Virus record (IMG/VR): IMGVR_UViG_3300027788_000040
Span: 1 to 32,890 of that record
Reading direction: 5' to 3' (one strand)
Length of the DNA: 32,890 nt
DNA from: a virus
The notes beneath the pieces are model-generated. The model was not told the DNA's origin and made no database searches. It saw nothing but the letters and a program-made list of their open reading frames with translations. Positions 7,226 through 32,654 of the stretch are shown in pieces; the first letter of the stretch is position 1; each line of letters starts with the position of its first letter. The translations under genes and the position numbers were made by a program.

Positions 7226-7254
7226 ATTATATCACACTTTTGATCATTTGTACA
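7226..7254 (-). promoter_or_regulatory. Minus-strand extended -10 promoter, antisense to the late genes
   Basis: On the - strand TGTACA (7249-7254) is followed by exactly 17 nt, ending TGA, and then TATAAT (7226-7231). This is the same TGTACA-N14-TGN-TATAAT arrangement as the + strand promoters. Transcription would start near 7219 and run leftward across the genes at 6792 and 6353. No convincing - strand ORF follows; only a GTG frame of 11 codons is seen. An antisense RNA or a relic promoter is likely. Confidence 0.7.
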
Positions 7255-23517: not shown

Positions 23518-23546
23518 TGTACATAGTACTTAATATGTGTTATAAT
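23518..23546 (+). promoter_or_regulatory. Early/middle-type promoter of the DNA-modification operon
   Basis: TGTACA (23518-23523), 17 nt ending TGT, TATAAT (23541-23546). No further promoter of this class or late box is seen until 28772, so it probably drives everything from 23576 to 28799, including the tRNA. Confidence 0.85.
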
Positions 23547-23575
23547 AACCATATCAAATACAAAAAGGCATTATT

Positions 23576-23881
23576 ATGAAATTCGATGAAGGCAAAGCAC
23601 CATTAGCTTTAATACCACCAGAAGCACTATTAGAAATTGCTGAAGTATTTGGCTTTGGTGCTGAAAAGTATGGTGTTAATAATTGGCGTGATGACGGTGA
23701 TTCTACTAGTAAACTTAGAACATATTCATCAATTCAAAGACATCTTAATGCTTGGCATGCAGGCGAAGACCTAGATCCAGAATCAGGTAAAACGCATTTA
23801 TCGCATGCCGCAACACAACTAATGATCTTAATGATGCATTGTAACGAACATCCAGAACTTGACGATAGGTATAAAAAATGA
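23576..23881 (+). CDS. dATP/dGTP diphosphohydrolase-type (DUF5664-like) protein
   Basis: 101 aa. Conserved KFDEGKAPLALIPPEALLEIAEVFGFGAEKYG, NNWRDDGDSTSK, QRHLNAWHAGEDLDPESG and THLSHAATQLMILM match the family annotated as dATP/dGTP diphosphohydrolase N-terminal domain. It is probably an all-alpha nucleotide pyrophosphohydrolase acting on purine dNTPs, though the substrate is by annotation only. First gene of the operon with dCMP hydroxymethylase (ATGA overlap at 23878), so a role in shaping the dNTP pool fits. Confidence 0.75.
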   Translation: MKFDEGKAPLALIPPEALLEIAEVFGFGAEKYGVNNWRDDGDSTSKLRTYSSIQRHLNAWHAGEDLDPESGKTHLSHAATQLMILMMHCNEHPELDDRYKK

Positions 23882-24534
23882 ATAGTATAAGCAACATCCG
23901 AGGTTTATTTAAAGCCAGACTTTTAAACGAAATGTTTACCGAAGACAGAAATGGTGGTAAAACTATTGAGTTAATCGGTGCATCTTTTATTGCTGACGAA
24001 TCGGCTATTTTTGGCAAACCTAACAGAAACTATATCGAATCTGAAATAGATTGGTATGTACATCAATCTACAAATATCAATGACATTTATCGTAATGACC
24101 GTGAACCACCTGCCGCATGGAAAATGGCTGCAAACGACCATGGAGAAATTAATTCCAATTATGGTCATTTGATTTTTAGTGAAAAGTACCATAATCAGTT
24201 TGAACAAGTTGTATTAGAACTTACTAGAAACAAAGATTCACGTAGAGCTAGTATGGTATATCAAAGACCTTCCATTTGGCACGAGTGGTATGAAAATGGT
24301 AAGAATGATTTTATCTGCACAAATGCAGTCACATATTACATACGTGACGATGCGTTAGAGTGTGTAGTTCAAATGAGATCTAACGACGTGATCTTCGGTT
24401 ATCGCAATGATTATGCTTGGCAAGAATATGTGCTTGGCGAATTAGCAGATGAGCTTGGAATTGATACCGGCCAAATGCATTGGCAAGTACAAAATCTACA
24501 CGTTTACGAACGTCACTTTGATTTAGTAGTATAA
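23878..24534 (+). CDS. 42: dCMP hydroxymethylase (T4 gp42 type)
   Basis: Makes 5-hydroxymethyl-dCMP from dCMP and methylene-tetrahydrofolate, so that hmC enters phage DNA. The product is 218 aa (T4 246; the C-terminal approximately 24 residues are absent). Close to T4 gp42: KTIELIGASFIADE, GEINSNYGHLIFSE, DSRRASMVYQRPS, DFICTNAVTYYIRD and MRSNDVIFGYRNDYAW. Cys147 is the catalytic Cys. Asp178 in RNDYAW corresponds to T4 Asp179, which replaces the thymidylate-synthase Asn and selects cytosine over uracil. It is therefore unlikely to be a dUMP enzyme. Thymidylate itself comes from ThyX at 31995. Confidence 0.9.
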   Translation: MNSISNIRGLFKARLLNEMFTEDRNGGKTIELIGASFIADESAIFGKPNRNYIESEIDWYVHQSTNINDIYRNDREPPAAWKMAANDHGEINSNYGHLIFSEKYHNQFEQVVLELTRNKDSRRASMVYQRPSIWHEWYENGKNDFICTNAVTYYIRDDALECVVQMRSNDVIFGYRNDYAWQEYVLGELADELGIDTGQMHWQVQNLHVYERHFDLVV

Positions 24535-24535
24535 T

Positions 24536-24997
24536 ATGTGGGAATCAGTTAAAGTTCATAAGTGGGATAAACGATATATTGCTTTAGCCCAACACATCGC
24601 GTTGTGGTCAAAAGACCCATCTCGAAAAGTTGGAGCCATTGCTGTAGGATCTAAGGGACAAGTTTTAGCTCAAGGATACAATGGATTTCCGCGTGGAATA
24701 TCTGATGATGCTGCCATGTATGAAAACAAGGTTACTAAGTATCAACACGTTGTACATGCTGAAATGAATTGCATATATAACGCAACATATAATGGAACAT
24801 CGCTTGATGGTGCAACATTATACATACACGGATTACCAGTTTGTTCTGAATGCGCTAAGGGTATTATACAAGTTGGCGTTGAACGTGTAGTTACTAAAAC
24901 TATAGATGATTCGATGCCAGAGCGTTGGGTAGAATCTACTGAGTTAACTAAGAAAATGTTTGATGAAGCTAACATAGCATATGACTTCATAGATTAG
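24536..24997 (+). CDS. cd: dCMP deaminase
   Basis: Zinc enzyme converting dCMP to dUMP to feed thymidylate synthesis. The product is 153 aa (T4 Cd 193). Zinc and catalytic motifs are VVHAEMN (His74, Glu76) and PVCSEC (Cys103, Cys106). N-terminal ALWSKDPSRKVGAIAV and GYNGFPRG are typical. It starts 1 nt after the gene 42 stop, so the two enzymes that compete for dCMP are made together, and ThyX downstream uses the dUMP. Confidence 0.93.
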   Translation: MWESVKVHKWDKRYIALAQHIALWSKDPSRKVGAIAVGSKGQVLAQGYNGFPRGISDDAAMYENKVTKYQHVVHAEMNCIYNATYNGTSLDGATLYIHGLPVCSECAKGIIQVGVERVVTKTIDDSMPERWVESTELTKKMFDEANIAYDFID

Positions 24998-25003
24998 AAT
25001 GCA

Positions 25004-25080
25004 GCGTCCTTAGCTCAGCTGGATAGAGCAACGGCCTTCTAAGCCGTAGGTCGGAGGTTCGAATCCTCCAGGACGCGCCA
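25004..25080 (+). tRNA. tRNA-Arg (anticodon TCT), CCA encoded
   Basis: Full cloverleaf: acceptor GCGTCCT (25004-25010) with AGGACGC (25070-25076), D arm AGCTCAGCTGGATAGAGC, anticodon stem ACGGC/GCCGT with loop CTTCTAA (TCT at 25038-25040), T arm with GGTTCGAATCC, discriminator G25077 and genomic CCA 25078-25080. It reads AGA, which is the usual Arg codon in these genes. It lies inside the modification operon between dCMP deaminase and the 25097 gene. Confidence 0.97.
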
Positions 25081-25096
25081 AATTAAGGAAACAACA

Positions 25097-25330
25097 ATGG
25101 AATATATAGGTTACAAATTTAAAATGTCAGAAGATGGATTAACATTCCACGACATTAATACCGCACTAGAACCTCACCAGAGGGTAAATATAAACTCCAC
25201 ACCATTTAAGACTGGAGATACTTTTATGCTCACTACTGATGCTAACGAATGTATGCATTTTAAAAGAGTTGACATTGTAGTTGATGGTAAGGATATCAGT
25301 ATGAAGGAGCCACAAAAAAATGGCGACTAA
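25097..25330 (+). CDS. Hypothetical protein, 77 aa
   Basis: SD AAGGAAACA before ATG 25097. Short, mostly beta: MEYIGYKFKMSEDGLTFHDINTALEP, FKTGDTFMLTTDANECMHFKRVDIVVDGKD. No membrane segment or known motif. It starts right after the tRNA CCA and overlaps the next gene by 11 nt, so it is part of the same coupled series. Confidence 0.6.
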   Translation: MEYIGYKFKMSEDGLTFHDINTALEPHQRVNINSTPFKTGDTFMLTTDANECMHFKRVDIVVDGKDISMKEPQKNGD

Positions 25331-25523
25331 AAACGATATAACAGGAGATAGTATACGATCAAAGGCTTTATCTAAGCAAGGTAGAGATAATTGGGATACT
25401 ATATTCGGTAAAAAAAATCCGGTTAAGAAGAACATGGATAAATTTCATAGACCTTCTACTCATCCGGATAAGACGAAATATGAACGCACAGACAAACATA
25501 AAACACCACATAGCGATGAATAG
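25320..25523 (+). CDS. Small basic protein, 67 aa, conserved N-terminus
   Basis: Begins MATKNDITGDSIRSKALSKQ, followed by NWDTIFGKKNPVKKN. The 'A-T-K-N-D-I-T-G-D-x-I' start is one I recognise from small proteins in marine T4-like phages. The C-terminal half is Lys/His/Pro-rich and likely disordered (HRPSTHPDKTKYERTDKHKT). Function unknown. It overlaps the genes on both sides. Confidence 0.6.
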   Translation: MATKNDITGDSIRSKALSKQGRDNWDTIFGKKNPVKKNMDKFHRPSTHPDKTKYERTDKHKTPHSDE

Positions 25524-25812
25524 CATGGCAGACTTTGATCCAAAAGAAATCAAAAACAGTAAACGAATATTTAAAAGCGCAACACCGAAATACACATTAG
25601 ATTGGTATATAAAATGGGTTGCATCGGTCTTTGTTTTAAGCGCAATGTCTATTAGAGGCATTGACGGATATCAATATTACGATGTTATATTATCAGCTAT
25701 GGGCATTTCGTTGTGGTTATGGGTATCCATTCTATGGCAAGACCGAGCTCTTATTTTACTTAATGGTGTAGGCTTATTGTTTCTACTAAGGAATTTATTT
25801 ACTATACTATGA
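25516..25812 (+). CDS. Small inner-membrane protein, about 98 aa
   Basis: Starts at ATG 25516 within the end of the previous gene; the frame is open to 25480, and ATG 25525 is another possible start. A short acidic N-terminus is followed by three hydrophobic segments: YIKWVASVFVLSAMSI, VILSAMGISLWLWVSILW and ALILLNGVGLLFLLRNLF. A 'D-W-Y-I-K-W...S-M-S-I-R-G' membrane protein of this kind is conserved in marine T4-like phages. Unknown function. It ends with ATGA onto the 25809 gene. Confidence 0.65.
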   Translation: MNSMADFDPKEIKNSKRIFKSATPKYTLDWYIKWVASVFVLSAMSIRGIDGYQYYDVILSAMGISLWLWVSILWQDRALILLNGVGLLFLLRNLFTIL

Positions 25813-26984
25813 AAAAAACTGAATACTATTATGACTTCTTGAGGTACTTTGAGCTGGCAAAAGATCAGCAAATCAAGTGCAATGTTCCTAACTTTATGCC
25901 ACATCTTGAAAGCGGTATGAATGACGATCTAATGGAAAACGTAGAATTGTACGATGTAGTCGAACGTAAGTATGCAGGATTTTCTCAAATTATAAATGAC
26001 GTATTTTACGGTTGGACTGAAGAACATCCATATTGGGATAAGATGCAATCCGGACATGCAACATCACAAAGAGAGGTGATTGCTAAAAACTGGACTGGAA
26101 AAACTCATTCATTAGAAACCTGGATGTTTTTGTTTATTCTACATAGGGTGACTGGTTCGGCAATTAATTACGGAACTAAACCTTCTGGATATCATAACAC
26201 ACTATTGTTTAAGCTACACTTGGCTGAAGACATTGATGATATGAAAAAGATCATTAAAGCTGAAGGTAAATTAGGAAAACCATTTTACACTTCAATCGGA
26301 TATCAATTCCCAGCATTCCCAAAACCGACATCTGATTACAAAAAAGGTGGAGATTATTTCTTATGTGAATACGCTCCAATCCTGGCAAAAAAACTATCTC
26401 ACTTCTTGGCTACTCCAGGTAAAAAAGATCTTAGAGAAGTCGGTGAATTTATGTTAAACTGGAATGTTGAAAATGGTTTAAGACGATACGCATTTCAATA
26501 TGCAGCAGTCGTTGCCGATATAGCAGATTGGTTTCCGCATTTGGTTAACACTGAAAGCATGTTTTATTACGGAACGAATGCAGTTGAATGTATTTCGTAT
26601 TTAGGAATTAACGACAAAAAATTAAAGAAAGAAGATTTCCTAGACGAAGTTATGATGCAAATTTATAGTGACACCGGAAGTGTTCCTTATAATGCAGAAG
26701 ACGTTTGCTGTGACTATATCAGATGGGTTGAAAATTATGTTAGACCTGGCAATGACTATAATCACTTAGATTATGATAACTTGTGGTCTAGTAGCAATAT
26801 TAAAGATCATCCGAGAGGCAGACAAAAGCCAATGCTTGAGCTTGGTTTAATAGACACGTTCAACGGAATGAAATCTCACCCCTCAGATTTAAAAGTATTA
26901 AACGAAAATAATTTAACAGTTAAAGATTATAAAGCGATGGTTTCACATTTAATGATGGACAAGGATATACGAAATGCCTCATAA
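25809..26984 (+). CDS. Possible DNA-base hypermodification transferase (amino acid:DNA transferase-like), 391 aa
   Basis: All-alpha soluble protein. Conserved-looking blocks: YYDFLRYFELAKDQQ, GFSQIINDVFYGWTEEHPYWD, WMFLFILHRVTGSAINYGTKPSGYHNTLL, GKPFYTSIGYQFPAFPKP, FMLNWNVENGLRRYAFQYAAVVADIADWFP, and CCDYIRWVENYVRPG. The H-R-x-T-G-S...G-Y-x-N-T block resembles, from memory, the helical DNA-base-modifying transferases that attach amino acids to activated hydroxymethyl-pyrimidines in phage DNA. I could not check this. Support comes from context: it is coupled to a PLP enzyme and an SGNH hydrolase and shares an operon with dCMP hydroxymethylase. The gene is certain; the function is a hypothesis. 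Confidence 0.4.
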   Translation: MKKTEYYYDFLRYFELAKDQQIKCNVPNFMPHLESGMNDDLMENVELYDVVERKYAGFSQIINDVFYGWTEEHPYWDKMQSGHATSQREVIAKNWTGKTHSLETWMFLFILHRVTGSAINYGTKPSGYHNTLLFKLHLAEDIDDMKKIIKAEGKLGKPFYTSIGYQFPAFPKPTSDYKKGGDYFLCEYAPILAKKLSHFLATPGKKDLREVGEFMLNWNVENGLRRYAFQYAAVVADIADWFPHLVNTESMFYYGTNAVECISYLGINDKKLKKEDFLDEVMMQIYSDTGSVPYNAEDVCCDYIRWVENYVRPGNDYNHLDYDNLWSSSNIKDHPRGRQKPMLELGLIDTFNGMKSHPSDLKVLNENNLTVKDYKAMVSHLMMDKDIRNAS

Positions 26985-27849
26985 TAACCACATAGAAGAC
27001 GGATTTAATAAAGACATCGGTTTAATGCAACCAGAAGAAGCAAAGGAATATTACTTAGATTTAGCTAAGAATTGGGAAGATCCAAATCCAGCTCCTGTTG
27101 AAGTTATGCATGACGGTGTTCGAGTTGTTAGAGATGACTTAATTGTAGGATCTAAAACTAGAGGCGGAGATTGTTTAATAAGTACTATTAAAGAAGAGAC
27201 AATCGCGTATGTTCAACCACGAACCGGTTTAGCTGGTGTAAGTATATTGGATGCTGCTAAAAGGCACAATAAAAAAGTAAGATTGTACATGCCATCTAGT
27301 AAGAGAATATCACATCATCAAGCTTGTTGTATTGAGCAAGGAGCCGATGTTAGTTTCCATAGAATAGCAGCAATGCCAAATTTAAACAAAATAGCCTTAG
27401 AAGATGCAAGAAAAAATGGATATTATTTCGTACCATTAGGTTTAAAACATGAGATGGTTACTGCTGGAATGGTGAAGGTTGCGAGTGCCCTACGCGCACC
27501 AGACGAAGTTTATGTAGCCACTTCTACAGGTGTGTTAACCAGAGCGCTTCAGATCGCATGGCCAAATGCCAAATTTACATCTGTTGCAGTGTCTAGAAAT
27601 ATGAAAGCTGGAGAATTAGGAAGGGCTGCTGTTATAAGCGAACCTAAACAATTTATGGCTTCAGAGAAAACCGAGAATCTTCCGCCATTCCCGTGTATCA
27701 GTACGTACGACGGAAAAGCGTGGAAGTACATACCAAAAAATAGCGGACGAGATATTTTATTTTGGAATGTTGGTCCTGAACCTACATTGCATAATGAAAC
27801 ATTATATGAAACAATTGATAGTTATAGAGACTGGGATAAAAATTTATGA
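26974..27849 (+). CDS. PLP-dependent enzyme, fold type II (ACC deaminase/D-cysteine desulfhydrase-like)
   Basis: 291 aa. RVVRDDLIVGSKTRGGDCLI (50-69) matches the 'R-E-D-L...G-N-K-T-R-K' segment of ACC deaminase-like enzymes, with Lys61 as the probable Schiff-base lysine. TSTGVLTRAL is the likely phosphate-binding loop, and GVSILDAAKRHNKKVRLYMPSSKR is the cofactor-domain helix-strand. The start overlaps the previous gene by 11 nt and the stop is ATGA onto the SGNH gene. Fold II enzymes act on amino acids (beta-elimination, replacement, ring opening). Here it may trim or supply an amino acid attached to the base. Family fairly sure; substrate unknown. Confidence 0.7.
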   Translation: MPHNNHIEDGFNKDIGLMQPEEAKEYYLDLAKNWEDPNPAPVEVMHDGVRVVRDDLIVGSKTRGGDCLISTIKEETIAYVQPRTGLAGVSILDAAKRHNKKVRLYMPSSKRISHHQACCIEQGADVSFHRIAAMPNLNKIALEDARKNGYYFVPLGLKHEMVTAGMVKVASALRAPDEVYVATSTGVLTRALQIAWPNAKFTSVAVSRNMKAGELGRAAVISEPKQFMASEKTENLPPFPCISTYDGKAWKYIPKNSGRDILFWNVGPEPTLHNETLYETIDSYRDWDKNL

Positions 27850-28799
27850 TAACAGGAACATTTAATAAAATACCAAAGAAGAAAAATAGTCACGGTTTTG
27901 GCTGGGCTAGAACCTGGTCAGAAAACCTTGGAGTTGGGATTAATCACAATGGAGATTATGTCGAGGTATTGTATTTAGATCACGGAGTAAACTTCGGTGG
28001 ATCTCTAAATTTGTTTTCGGGATTCAATGATGAATTGGAAGATAGGATAAATAACTTCTTAGAAGCTAAAGTAATATATTCATTAGATATTGATATGCCA
28101 GACTATGGAGAGATGCTAAAGAAGCGCAAAGATGTAACAGATAAAGCTTGGTGCGATAAAGTGTCAGCGAAATGTAAAGGCATAAAGAGATTAAAATCTA
28201 CAGATATTGTTGACATAAAATGGTTAACAATAGGTGACTCACACACAGCAGCGTATGCAAAAGAGAATTCTCTTGTAATTAAAACCGACGGACTAACACT
28301 CAACGGCCAAATAAACACAGAGTTTGAGTATGTTATACAACACATAGAAGAATGTTTTCCAAGAGGCATTACAATGTCATTTGGAAATATTGATATTAGA
28401 CATCATGTCTGTAGACTAAAGGCTGATATAAAGCCTATGTTGAAAGCATGGAAAAAATTTGGTGATGAACTAGAGCAAAAAGGTATAAAGGTAGAGTATT
28501 CTACTCCATGGCCTATTGAGTTTGAAGAACGTAAATTACCGAAAACTGGTTATTACAAAGGCCAGGCTTTTTGGGGATCCCGAAAAGAGCGAATGCAAGT
28601 ACTATCCGAATGGATATCTTGCATGGATGAACTAGGTATGACGCGAGTCAAATATCCTGAAGAGTGGCTTACTATGGATAGTGAGCAATACGCCAAGAAC
28701 AATATGGAAAGTGTTTCATCTGTACATTTATCTCCCGAATCATATAGAAGAAAAAATTGGGGAATTAACTGTGTACAAATCACTGATTTCATGTTATAA
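27846..28799 (+). CDS. SGNH/GDSL-type hydrolase, 317 aa
   Basis: SGNH blocks: IGDSHT (129-134) with nucleophile Ser132, SFGNIDIRHH (178-187) and VHLSPESYRR with catalytic His294. The first approximately 120 residues form a separate N-terminal region with no recognised motif. Such hydrolases cleave or transfer acyl or acetyl groups. Third member of the coupled trio with the transferase-like and PLP proteins, so it may add or remove an acyl group in the same pathway. The S21 promoter (28772-28800) is embedded in its last codons. Confidence 0.7.
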   Translation: MITGTFNKIPKKKNSHGFGWARTWSENLGVGINHNGDYVEVLYLDHGVNFGGSLNLFSGFNDELEDRINNFLEAKVIYSLDIDMPDYGEMLKKRKDVTDKAWCDKVSAKCKGIKRLKSTDIVDIKWLTIGDSHTAAYAKENSLVIKTDGLTLNGQINTEFEYVIQHIEECFPRGITMSFGNIDIRHHVCRLKADIKPMLKAWKKFGDELEQKGIKVEYSTPWPIEFEERKLPKTGYYKGQAFWGSRKERMQVLSEWISCMDELGMTRVKYPEEWLTMDSEQYAKNNMESVSSVHLSPESYRRKNWGINCVQITDFML

Positions 28800-28800
28800 T
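28772..28800 (+). promoter_or_regulatory. Early/middle-type promoter for bS21-uvsX-41
   Basis: TGTACA (28772-28777), 17 nt ending TGT, TATAAT (28795-28800), lying wholly within the 3' end of the SGNH gene except the last base. It drives the bS21 gene and what follows. Confidence 0.85.
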
Positions 28801-28831: not shown

Positions 28832-29107
28832 ATGCCAAGCATTAATTTACAAGCACAACCGCGAAAGTTTAACAAAAATCGGAAAGGTAAGAGGGACGAA
28901 CGTCCACCACAAGATATGCCGTTTGATGTCGCTTTACGCAAATTTAAAAAAGCAGTTGAAGCTGCAGGAATCTTACAAGATGTTAGACGAAAAGAGTTTT
29001 ATGAAAAACCTACGTCTAAACGTAAGCGTAAGAAGGCCGAGGCCAAAGCAAGAACTAAGAGAGAAATGCGCATGTCAGCAACCTTTCAACCTAGGAGGAA
29101 ATTCTAA
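28832..29107 (+). CDS. rpsU: Ribosomal protein bS21
   Basis: 91 aa (bacterial bS21 about 70). The core [19 protein letters not shown], then [24 protein letters not shown], is unmistakable bS21. A basic approximately 28-residue N-terminal extension ([12 protein letters not shown]) precedes it. bS21 sits at the 30S platform next to the anti-SD, so a phage copy may retune which mRNAs are initiated. Phage bS21 genes are known, notably in pelagiphages. SD AGAGGAAC and its own promoter suggest early, high expression. TAATG overlap with uvsX. Confidence 0.95.
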
Positions 29108-31994: not shown

Positions 31995-32654
31995 ATGTTT
32001 AAAGTTCGTGTAGTTTCATATAGTAAGCCAGCAATTGGCGTTGATTTGAAAGACGATTTGTTACAAATGGTAGCATATTGTGCCAGGGTGTCGAATCCTG
32101 GTAACCAAAATAATGAAGAGACCGCAGAGAAACTAGTTAAATATTTGATTAAACATCAGCACTGGTCGCCTCTCGAGATGGCCAGTGTCTGTATGGAAAT
32201 CGATACGACTCGGGATATCGCCCGTCAAATTCTTAGACATAGATCATTTTCTTTCCAAGAGTTTAGCCAGCGATATGCTGATCCTACTAAAGATTTAAGC
32301 TTTGTGACCAGAGATGCTAGAATGCAAGATACCACAAATCGACAAAACTCTGTTGATATCCCTATGGAAGATTCTATTCATCATATATGGGAATCATATC
32401 AAGAGGTTATTATTGAGCGATGTAAGCATGCATACGAATGGGCAATTTCTGCAGGTATCGCGAAAGAGCAGGCAAGAGCTATTCTTCCCGAAGGACTAAC
32501 AATGTCCCGCATGTATGTCAATGGAACGTTAAGATCTTGGATACATTATATCCAATTGCGATCAGCCAATGGTACTCAGCAGGAACATCAAGAAATAGCT
32601 AGGGCATGCGCCGAGGCAATATACCAAATATTTCCACTTGATGACGTTATATAA
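31995..32654 (+). CDS. thyX: Flavin-dependent thymidylate synthase ThyX
   Basis: Makes dTMP from dUMP using FAD, NADPH and methylene-tetrahydrofolate. The product is 219 aa. The ThyX signature RHRSFSFQEFSQR (81-93) is intact, followed by EQARAILPEGLTMSRMYVNGTLRSWIHYIQLR with the substrate-binding residues. It complements dCMP deaminase. Together with gene 42 it means the phage makes both dTMP and hydroxymethyl-dCMP. No SD is obvious (AACCAACC before ATG); coupling from the 31824 gene is likely. Confidence 0.95.
   Translation: MFKVRVVSYSKPAIGVDLKDDLLQMVAYCARVSNPGNQNNEETAEKLVKYLIKHQHWSPLEMASVCMEIDTTRDIARQILRHRSFSFQEFSQRYADPTKDLSFVTRDARMQDTTNRQNSVDIPMEDSIHHIWESYQEVIIERCKHAYEWAISAGIAKEQARAILPEGLTMSRMYVNGTLRSWIHYIQLRSANGTQQEHQEIARACAEAIYQIFPLDDVI

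Follow-up and report, generated by a model that had tools for sequence, protein, structure and literature searches.

A promoter-bounded gene unit of a marine T4-like phage as a candidate cytosine version of M6-type DNA hypermodification

We have analyzed a 32,890-base stretch of viral DNA (IMG/VR record IMGVR_UViG_3300027788_000040, positions 1 to 32,890), referred to below as the window, which is a fragment of a T4-like phage genome. Its capsid protein is nearest to those of Methylophilales phage Melnitz and Pelagibacter phage HTVC008M (~58%), and the phage is described here as marine T4-like. Our subject is the gene unit at positions 23518-28799, in which a dCMP hydroxymethylase (HMase) and other nucleotide-pool genes are followed by genes for a transferase-like protein (the 25809 protein, labeled TRA), a pyridoxal phosphate (PLP) enzyme and an SGNH-fold protein; these last three are together called the trio. 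An initial annotation had proposed for this unit a new pathway, in which an amino acid or acyl group is attached to 5-hydroxymethylcytosine (hmC) and then processed by the PLP enzyme. We put at roughly 0.58 the probability that the unit is a cytosine version of the DNA hypermodification system of phage M6. A PLP enzyme of the M6 family, the predicted fold of TRA and the location of the trio at the T4 beta-glucosyltransferase position all support the proposed pathway, and its chemistry is what we infer from these resemblances.

The gene unit and its boundaries

The features of the unit are as follows.

23518..23546, + strand: promoter, TGTACA-N14-TGTTATAAT, with an extended -10, 30 bases to the 5' side of the first gene; the motif is enriched and kept in relatives
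23576..23881, + strand: nucleotide phosphohydrolase, dATP/dGTP diphosphohydrolase-type (PF18909, E 2.3e-30; PHROG 801)
23878..24534, + strand: dCMP hydroxymethylase (HMase), T4 gp42 type (PDB 1b49, E 2.7e-59; Asp178, catalytic Cys147)
24536..24997, + strand: dCMP deaminase (PF00383, E 9.9e-20)
25004..25080, + strand: tRNA-Arg, anticodon TCT, within the unit (ARAGORN)
25097-25330, 25320-25523 (DUF7230) and 25480-25812 (DUF6552), + strand: three small open reading frames (Pfam)
25809..26984, + strand: TRA, all-alpha amino acid:DNA transferase-like protein, 391 aa (AlphaFold model, structural matches)
26974..27849, + strand: PLP fold-type II enzyme, phage M6 gp52 family, phrog_7093 (profile, BLASTP, hhalign)
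27846..28799, + strand: SGNH/GDSL-fold protein with an N-terminal domain weakly like T4 beta-glucosyltransferase (model, alignment, hhalign)
28772..28800, + strand: next promoter copy, to the 5' side of a ribosomal-S21-like gene and UvsX; downstream boundary (motif, kept in relatives)

All of the reading frames named in the initial annotation are present at its coordinates. The chain of overlapping genes that it described is seen in part: overlaps of 4, 4, 11 and 4 bases occur at 23878, 25809, 26974 and 27846, respectively, and the chain is interrupted by a 99-base gap after the deaminase gene, inside which the tRNA-Arg(TCT) gene is located. The three small reading frames (25097..25812) are absent from many relatives and probably have no part in the chemistry.

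Generic sigma-70-like sites occur in the window at the level of chance (28 found versus 30.9 expected). The specific motif TGTACA-N14-TGnTATAAT was present in 12 copies, allowing 3 mismatches or fewer, versus 2.85 expected, and none of 100 shuffles contained as many. Most copies lie about 25–35 bases to the 5' side of a gene, including those for polymerase and clamp, the first gene of the unit (23518) and the S21-like gene next to UvsX (28772). The proposal of a single promoter for the unit agrees with this distribution, as the motif is found at 23518 and next only at 28772. Seven relatives (L001, L002, L007, L061, L011, L012, L015) have retained the copies at the unit start and at S21/UvsX and have no further copy in the interval, and 23518-28799 is thus a unit bounded by conserved promoters, of a type that is common to replication genes. 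Copies at window positions 7226, 10771, 12984, 14467, 18478, 21065, 23518, 28772 and 32712 stand to the 5' side of replication and metabolism gene blocks. The phage-encoded gene for a ribosomal protein S21-like product (28832-29107) is immediately 5' of UvsX.

The hydroxymethylase and the three coupled proteins

The HMase matched T4 gp42 (PDB 1b49) with E 2.7e-59 over residues 14-217, which bears out its earlier designation as T4-type. Its dCMP-selecting residue, Asp178, occupies the position of Asn177 in Escherichia coli thymidylate synthase, and this Asp and the catalytic Cys were each found in 86 of 86 distinct cassette-adjacent HMases. In contrast, the enzymes of M6 and ViI, which serve pathways based on 5-hydroxymethyluracil (hmU; 5-hmdU as the deoxynucleoside), have the Asn of a dUMP-type hydroxymethylase where all of the cassette HMases have Asp. 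In a virome association study, Asp177 correlates with modified cytosine (PMC8670742). The window also has its own ThyX (31995-32654), so that synthesis of dTMP is independent of the HMase. PLP enzymes and TRA-like folds are known from hmU phages, and the HMase could on that account be effectively a thymidylate or dUMP enzyme within an ordinary hmU or thymidine hypermodification unit; the 86 Asp-type enzymes, the closest match to T4 gp42 and the presence of ThyX make this extremely improbable.

Among the other nucleotide-pool functions, the phosphohydrolase may possibly clear dCTP. Eight related contigs gave no match to the T4 dNMP kinase (PF21448). A cytidylyltransferase-like gene is a frequent neighbor of the HMase, even in intervals from which the trio is absent (L011:7601-8014, L277:6847-7320, L194:6899-7315).

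The window TRA protein had no significant Pfam or PHROG match, and direct Pfam, PHROG and PDB sequence searches with TRA, and with a protein designated gene X that is described below, yielded nothing useful. For its AlphaFold model (pLDDT 70.6), the top match among solved structures was 8z2n, the PaMx11 5-PmdU glycinyltransferase (gp46, PUGT), with Z 10.3 over 211 residues (VIA-align), followed by queuine-salvage and DNA-glycosylase folds at Z ~8. The sequences of TRA and the PaMx11 protein are 5% identical, and TRA is ~100 residues longer. Viral models (BFVD) named amino acid:DNA transferase matched TRA with E 4e-32 and 6e-5; the nearest relative among such models is 61% identical to TRA and carries this name, and the distant one is that with E 6e-5. 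M6 gp51, which belongs to the ADDT family of amino acid:DNA transferases (PF18724), is homologous to the PaMx11 enzyme. By hhalign, TRA showed no significant similarity to HMUDK_hel, and its comparison with gene X gave P 0.006 only.

The 26974 protein, which had been assigned to PLP fold II, is PALP-like and a member of phrog_7093, the profile of which matched the window protein with 8.6e-38 and M6 gp52 with 2.2e-159. Compared directly, the window protein and gp52 are related at 24% identity (BLASTP, E 5e-8) and at an hhalign probability of 100%. The segment GxK61xR is invariant in 13 relatives, and from the fold-II motif K61 is presumed to be the PLP-binding lysine. In M6, the gp52 gene is located between that for gp51 and a radical-SAM gene, with 5-hmdU kinase genes alongside. 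No match of the gp52-type family was found in the ViI genome, and matches of the window protein to EvgA were judged to be chance. The family is also seen within or beside genes annotated as ParB-like or DNA methylase, in Erythrobacter phage R6L (L069) and Microcystis phage Mae-JY30 (L070).

For the 27846 protein, both the fold and the catalytic residues of an SGNH hydrolase, as first annotated, are supported by model and alignment. The model (pLDDT 73.7), for which only the sequences of the window and of viral contigs were aligned, gave Z 9-11 with dozens of GDSL esterases over residues 122-306. S132, G154/G180, N181 and H294 are invariant in 15 aligned SGNH proteins, down to ~25% identity; the usual Asp of the DxxH motif, three residues before the His, is absent in these 15 proteins, and Glu288, six residues before His294, is present in all of them. 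The N-terminal part of the protein weakly matches T4 beta-glucosyltransferase (BGT), with hhalign P 3.8e-5, where the best P among 60 shuffled controls was 0.0094. The BGT Pfam model was weakly matched, below cut-off, in four contigs, and three of these matches were placed within SGNH genes, the fourth being unplaced. A C5 cytosine-methylase-like protein is encoded directly 3' of SGNH in several cassettes (L037:6507-7730, L194:12354-13562).

No glycosyltransferase was recognized in the window, as the initial annotation had remarked, and a T4-type alpha-glucosyltransferase was found in 0 of 10 large related contigs in a search whose control was silent. The window is only a fragment, and a glycosyltransferase could therefore be encoded elsewhere in the genome, in which case the HMase would make hmC, the trio would be decaying or unrelated, and the mature base would be plain hmC or glucosyl-hmC. 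That account is very unlikely in view of the alpha-glucosyltransferase result, the location of the weak BGT matches, where placeable, within SGNH genes, and the invariance of the active-site residues of the SGNH and PLP proteins.

The trio as a module and its place between HMase and UvsX

A search of uncultured viral contigs for TRA gave 65 loci at first, which represent 13 TRA groups at 85% identity, and a TRA profile then gave at least 458 stretches in such contigs. We counted gene linkage in loci with at least 4 kb of flank on each side, in sets that share members and do not represent independent genomes. The 47 TRA-centered loci contained SGNH in 47, PLP in 43, HMase in 38 and gene X in 31; the 24 SGNH-centered loci contained TRA in 24 and PLP and HMase in 21 each. 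For the combined flanked loci, TRA and SGNH occurred together in 71 of 71, and PLP was added in 64 of these 71. The gene orders seen were TRA-PLP-SGNH, SGNH-PLP-TRA, PLP-SGNH-TRA, SGNH-X-PLP-TRA, TRA-X-SGNH-PLP and SGNH-TRA without PLP. The 3 genes keep company although their order is shuffled, which argues for a joint function; the trio is a genuine, mobile module.

Gene X (L020:3483-4490 and 50 other loci) encodes a conserved protein of ~330 aa. Most cassettes have it between TRA and PLP, and the window cassette lacks it; no known family was matched by it. In five cassette groups, a small protein weakly similar to uracil-DNA glycosylase (E 0.0023) is encoded just 5' of TRA (L051:7598-8014, L032:3439-3864).

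The initial annotation had asked whether homologues of the trio are common in phages that lack a hydroxymethylase. Wherever an enzyme of this kind was found together with TRA, it was of the Asp type, even in a lineage with no HMase nearby, where the gene for a distant thymidylate-synthase-family enzyme with Asp is located elsewhere on a 256-kb contig; in the four shorter TRA contigs of that lineage, no HMase was found at all. The other 2 families are less restricted. The PLP family extends to hmU phages of the M6 type, the M6 hydroxymethylase being of the Asn type, and SGNH is present in an inositol-type cassette without TRA. Exclusive pairing of SGNH with TRA was ruled out, as seven TRA-negative UvsX loci pair SGNH with another partner.

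In T4 the gene order is 42 - b-gt - uvsX, and in T4-like phages the trio occupies the T4 beta-gt position. The unit resembles the T4 region in its type of hydroxymethylase, in the slot 5' of uvsX and in the weakly BGT-like N-domain of SGNH, and differs from it in that the slot contains TRA-PLP-SGNH and no glucosyltransferase. Among marine T4-like phages, the HMase-UvsX interval is occupied by varied cassettes, including TRA-PLP-SGNH, a set with an inositol-phosphate-synthase-like protein, a protein Y and SGNH, and sugar-type cassettes, these last names having been read from sequence and not from a family search. Position in this slot suggests a role in decoration of hmC.

The inositol-type cassettes (L328, L334, L347, L379) encode a myo-inositol-1-phosphate-synthase-like protein, a HAD-like protein, the HMUDK_hel-related protein Y of ~355 aa, SGNH and a C5-methylase-like protein, and such a cassette may put inositol on hmC. 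Protein Y, the SGNH partner in these cassettes, matches HMUDK_hel with P 1.5e-5. In the cultured Aeromonas phage 44RR, which has an Asp-type gp42, ORF233c (L067:5992-8379) consists of an SGNH protein of the same family (31% identity) fused to a second, helical domain that is related to protein Y (hhalign 5.6e-40). This fused domain is of the HMUDK_hel type and not TRA, and a PLP enzyme of the M6 gp52 family is absent. Going by the 44RR fusion and protein Y, a helical protein of the hypermodification type is a recurrent partner of SGNH in hmC-type phages.

A candidate pathway to a modified cytosine

M6 and ViI hypermodify hmU by means of a 5hmdU DNA kinase and amine transferases (PMC6449724). 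The 5-NedU pathway of M6 has in common with the unit described here a phrog_7093 PLP enzyme, an adjoining gene for an all-alpha transferase and a thymidylate-synthase-family hydroxymethylase. It differs in its hmU base and in its HMUDK kinase, HMUDK_hel and radical-SAM gene, whereas the present cassette is of the hmC type, has none of these by sequence, contains an SGNH protein instead, and has a TRA that escapes the ADDT profile.

From these likenesses we infer the following order of reactions. The phosphohydrolase, dCMP hydroxymethylase and deaminase would reshape the nucleotide pool such that 5-hydroxymethyl-dC replaces dC in replication, through incorporation of hmdCTP. Once the DNA has been replicated, its hmC would be activated at the hydroxymethyl group, TRA would displace the activated group with a small amine or amino acid, and the M6-type PLP enzyme would trim the amino acid so attached. 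The likeliest trimming reaction is a decarboxylation, as at the PLP step of M6, which also acts on an attached amino acid. SGNH would act on the same base, either by acylating the hydroxyl to create a leaving group, the task of the DNA kinase in M6, or by taking an acyl group off the side chain or putting one on it. An aminoalkyl-type cytosine that protects against restriction would result.

HMUDK (PF18748) had no match above cut-off in 12 related contigs, all of them fragments, in searches where M6 scored 1.1e-19; the kinases behind the P-loop matches to HMUDK turned out to resemble zeta toxin or APS kinase. The only cassette seen with a P-loop kinase directly in it (L289:8955-10483) encodes next a thymidylate-synthase relative reading GFPLDIA, and a second copy of the kinase is located elsewhere on that contig. 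Because SGNH accompanies TRA even where PLP has been lost, it may replace the kinase as activator. In a fuller version of this hypothesis, which we hold tentatively and as rather doubtful, an SGNH acyltransferase would hold hmC-DNA by its BGT-like domain and make acyloxymethyl-cytosine, a TRA- or Y-type transferase would add the amino acid, and the PLP enzyme would decarboxylate it; this kinase-free outline would be common to several HMase-UvsX cassettes.

A number of observations weigh against the M6-like pathway. With regards to TRA, none of 15 TRA proteins matched the ADDT profile PF18724 at E<=1, the hhalign comparison between TRA and ADDT fell short of significance, a Foldseek search of the TRA model versus the PDB gave no significant match, and a Z of 10.3 counts as modest when the fold is helical. 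TRA has structural matches without a profile match or a significant Foldseek match, and we therefore describe it as a protein that, by its model, resembles ADDT in fold and lies outside PF18724; the transferase-like character first assigned to it is retained for the fold and finds no counterpart in the ADDT Pfam and hhalign comparisons. Neither an HMUDK kinase nor a radical-SAM relative was found in the cassette loci. PLP enzymes of fold type II mostly catalyze beta-eliminations or replacements, so that decarboxylation is not assured, and some cassettes have no PLP gene (L277, L287, L302), which is thus not essential to the module. Finally, among loci chosen by UvsX, HMase was present in 6 of 6 that were TRA-positive and in 20 of 26 that were TRA-negative (Fisher p 0.56).

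The last result bears on the idea that the trio tracks with gene 42. An Asp-type HMase is beside most of the flanked cassettes; within T4-like phages, however, HMase is the rule, and its company there is uninformative and no specific evidence. We have accordingly dropped HMase co-occurrence as a strong argument. The trio could also stand beside the HMase only through a shared replication-type block, and have as its target not DNA but, for example, a surface polymer, a metabolite of the host or a part of the virion. Many SGNH proteins are polymer or carbohydrate esterases, and in one lineage a glycosyltransferase and UDP-galactopyranose mutase adjoin the cassette. We nevertheless consider a non-DNA target improbable, since the beta-gt position, the M6-type PLP enzyme, the ADDT-like fold, the BGT-like N-domain and the replication-type promoter all point to DNA.

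A different chemistry on hmC-DNA has somewhat more in its favor. SGNH and TRA could together transfer an acyl, carbamoyl-like or polyol group, with the PLP enzyme only making the donor, off the DNA; such an arrangement would be consistent with the joint presence of SGNH and TRA where PLP is missing (L277, L287, L302), and with the pairing of SGNH with another helical protein in the myo-inositol-phosphate-synthase-like cassettes (L328, L334). A non-sugar modification of this kind, 5hmC carbamoylation, is already known (PMC8670742). The MetaGPA carbamoyltransferase systems of that study resemble ours in combining an Asp-type HMase with a non-sugar hmC-modifying enzyme in uncultured phages, and differ in having carbamoyltransferase domains rather than ADDT-like, PLP and SGNH proteins. 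Yet the PLP family adjoins amino acid:DNA transferase genes in M6-type clusters, and the fold nearest to that of TRA is a glycinyltransferase; a pathway with an off-DNA role for PLP is possible, in our estimation, without being likely. The M6-like pathway on cytosine is the reading that we prefer.

To our knowledge, amino-acid hypermodification of DNA is known only on hydroxymethyluracil, and our literature search, which did not reach key papers on the 5-hmdU pathways, found no account of it on cytosine. The module, with its 458 or more TRA stretches, is common in uncultured aquatic-type phages. Metagenome-assembled bacterial genomes contained only four TRA relatives, however, and a set of 50,697 phage records contained none, so that the module has probably been overlooked. 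If the proposed pathway is correct, these phages would possess a new class of cytosine bases and, with it, DNA armoured by chemistry of a new kind, which would bear on restriction evasion, on modification-dependent restriction and on enzymatic tools for the epigenome. In addition, the HMase-UvsX interval resembles a plug-in site for hmC-decorating pathways, and further such pathways should for that reason be easy to find there.

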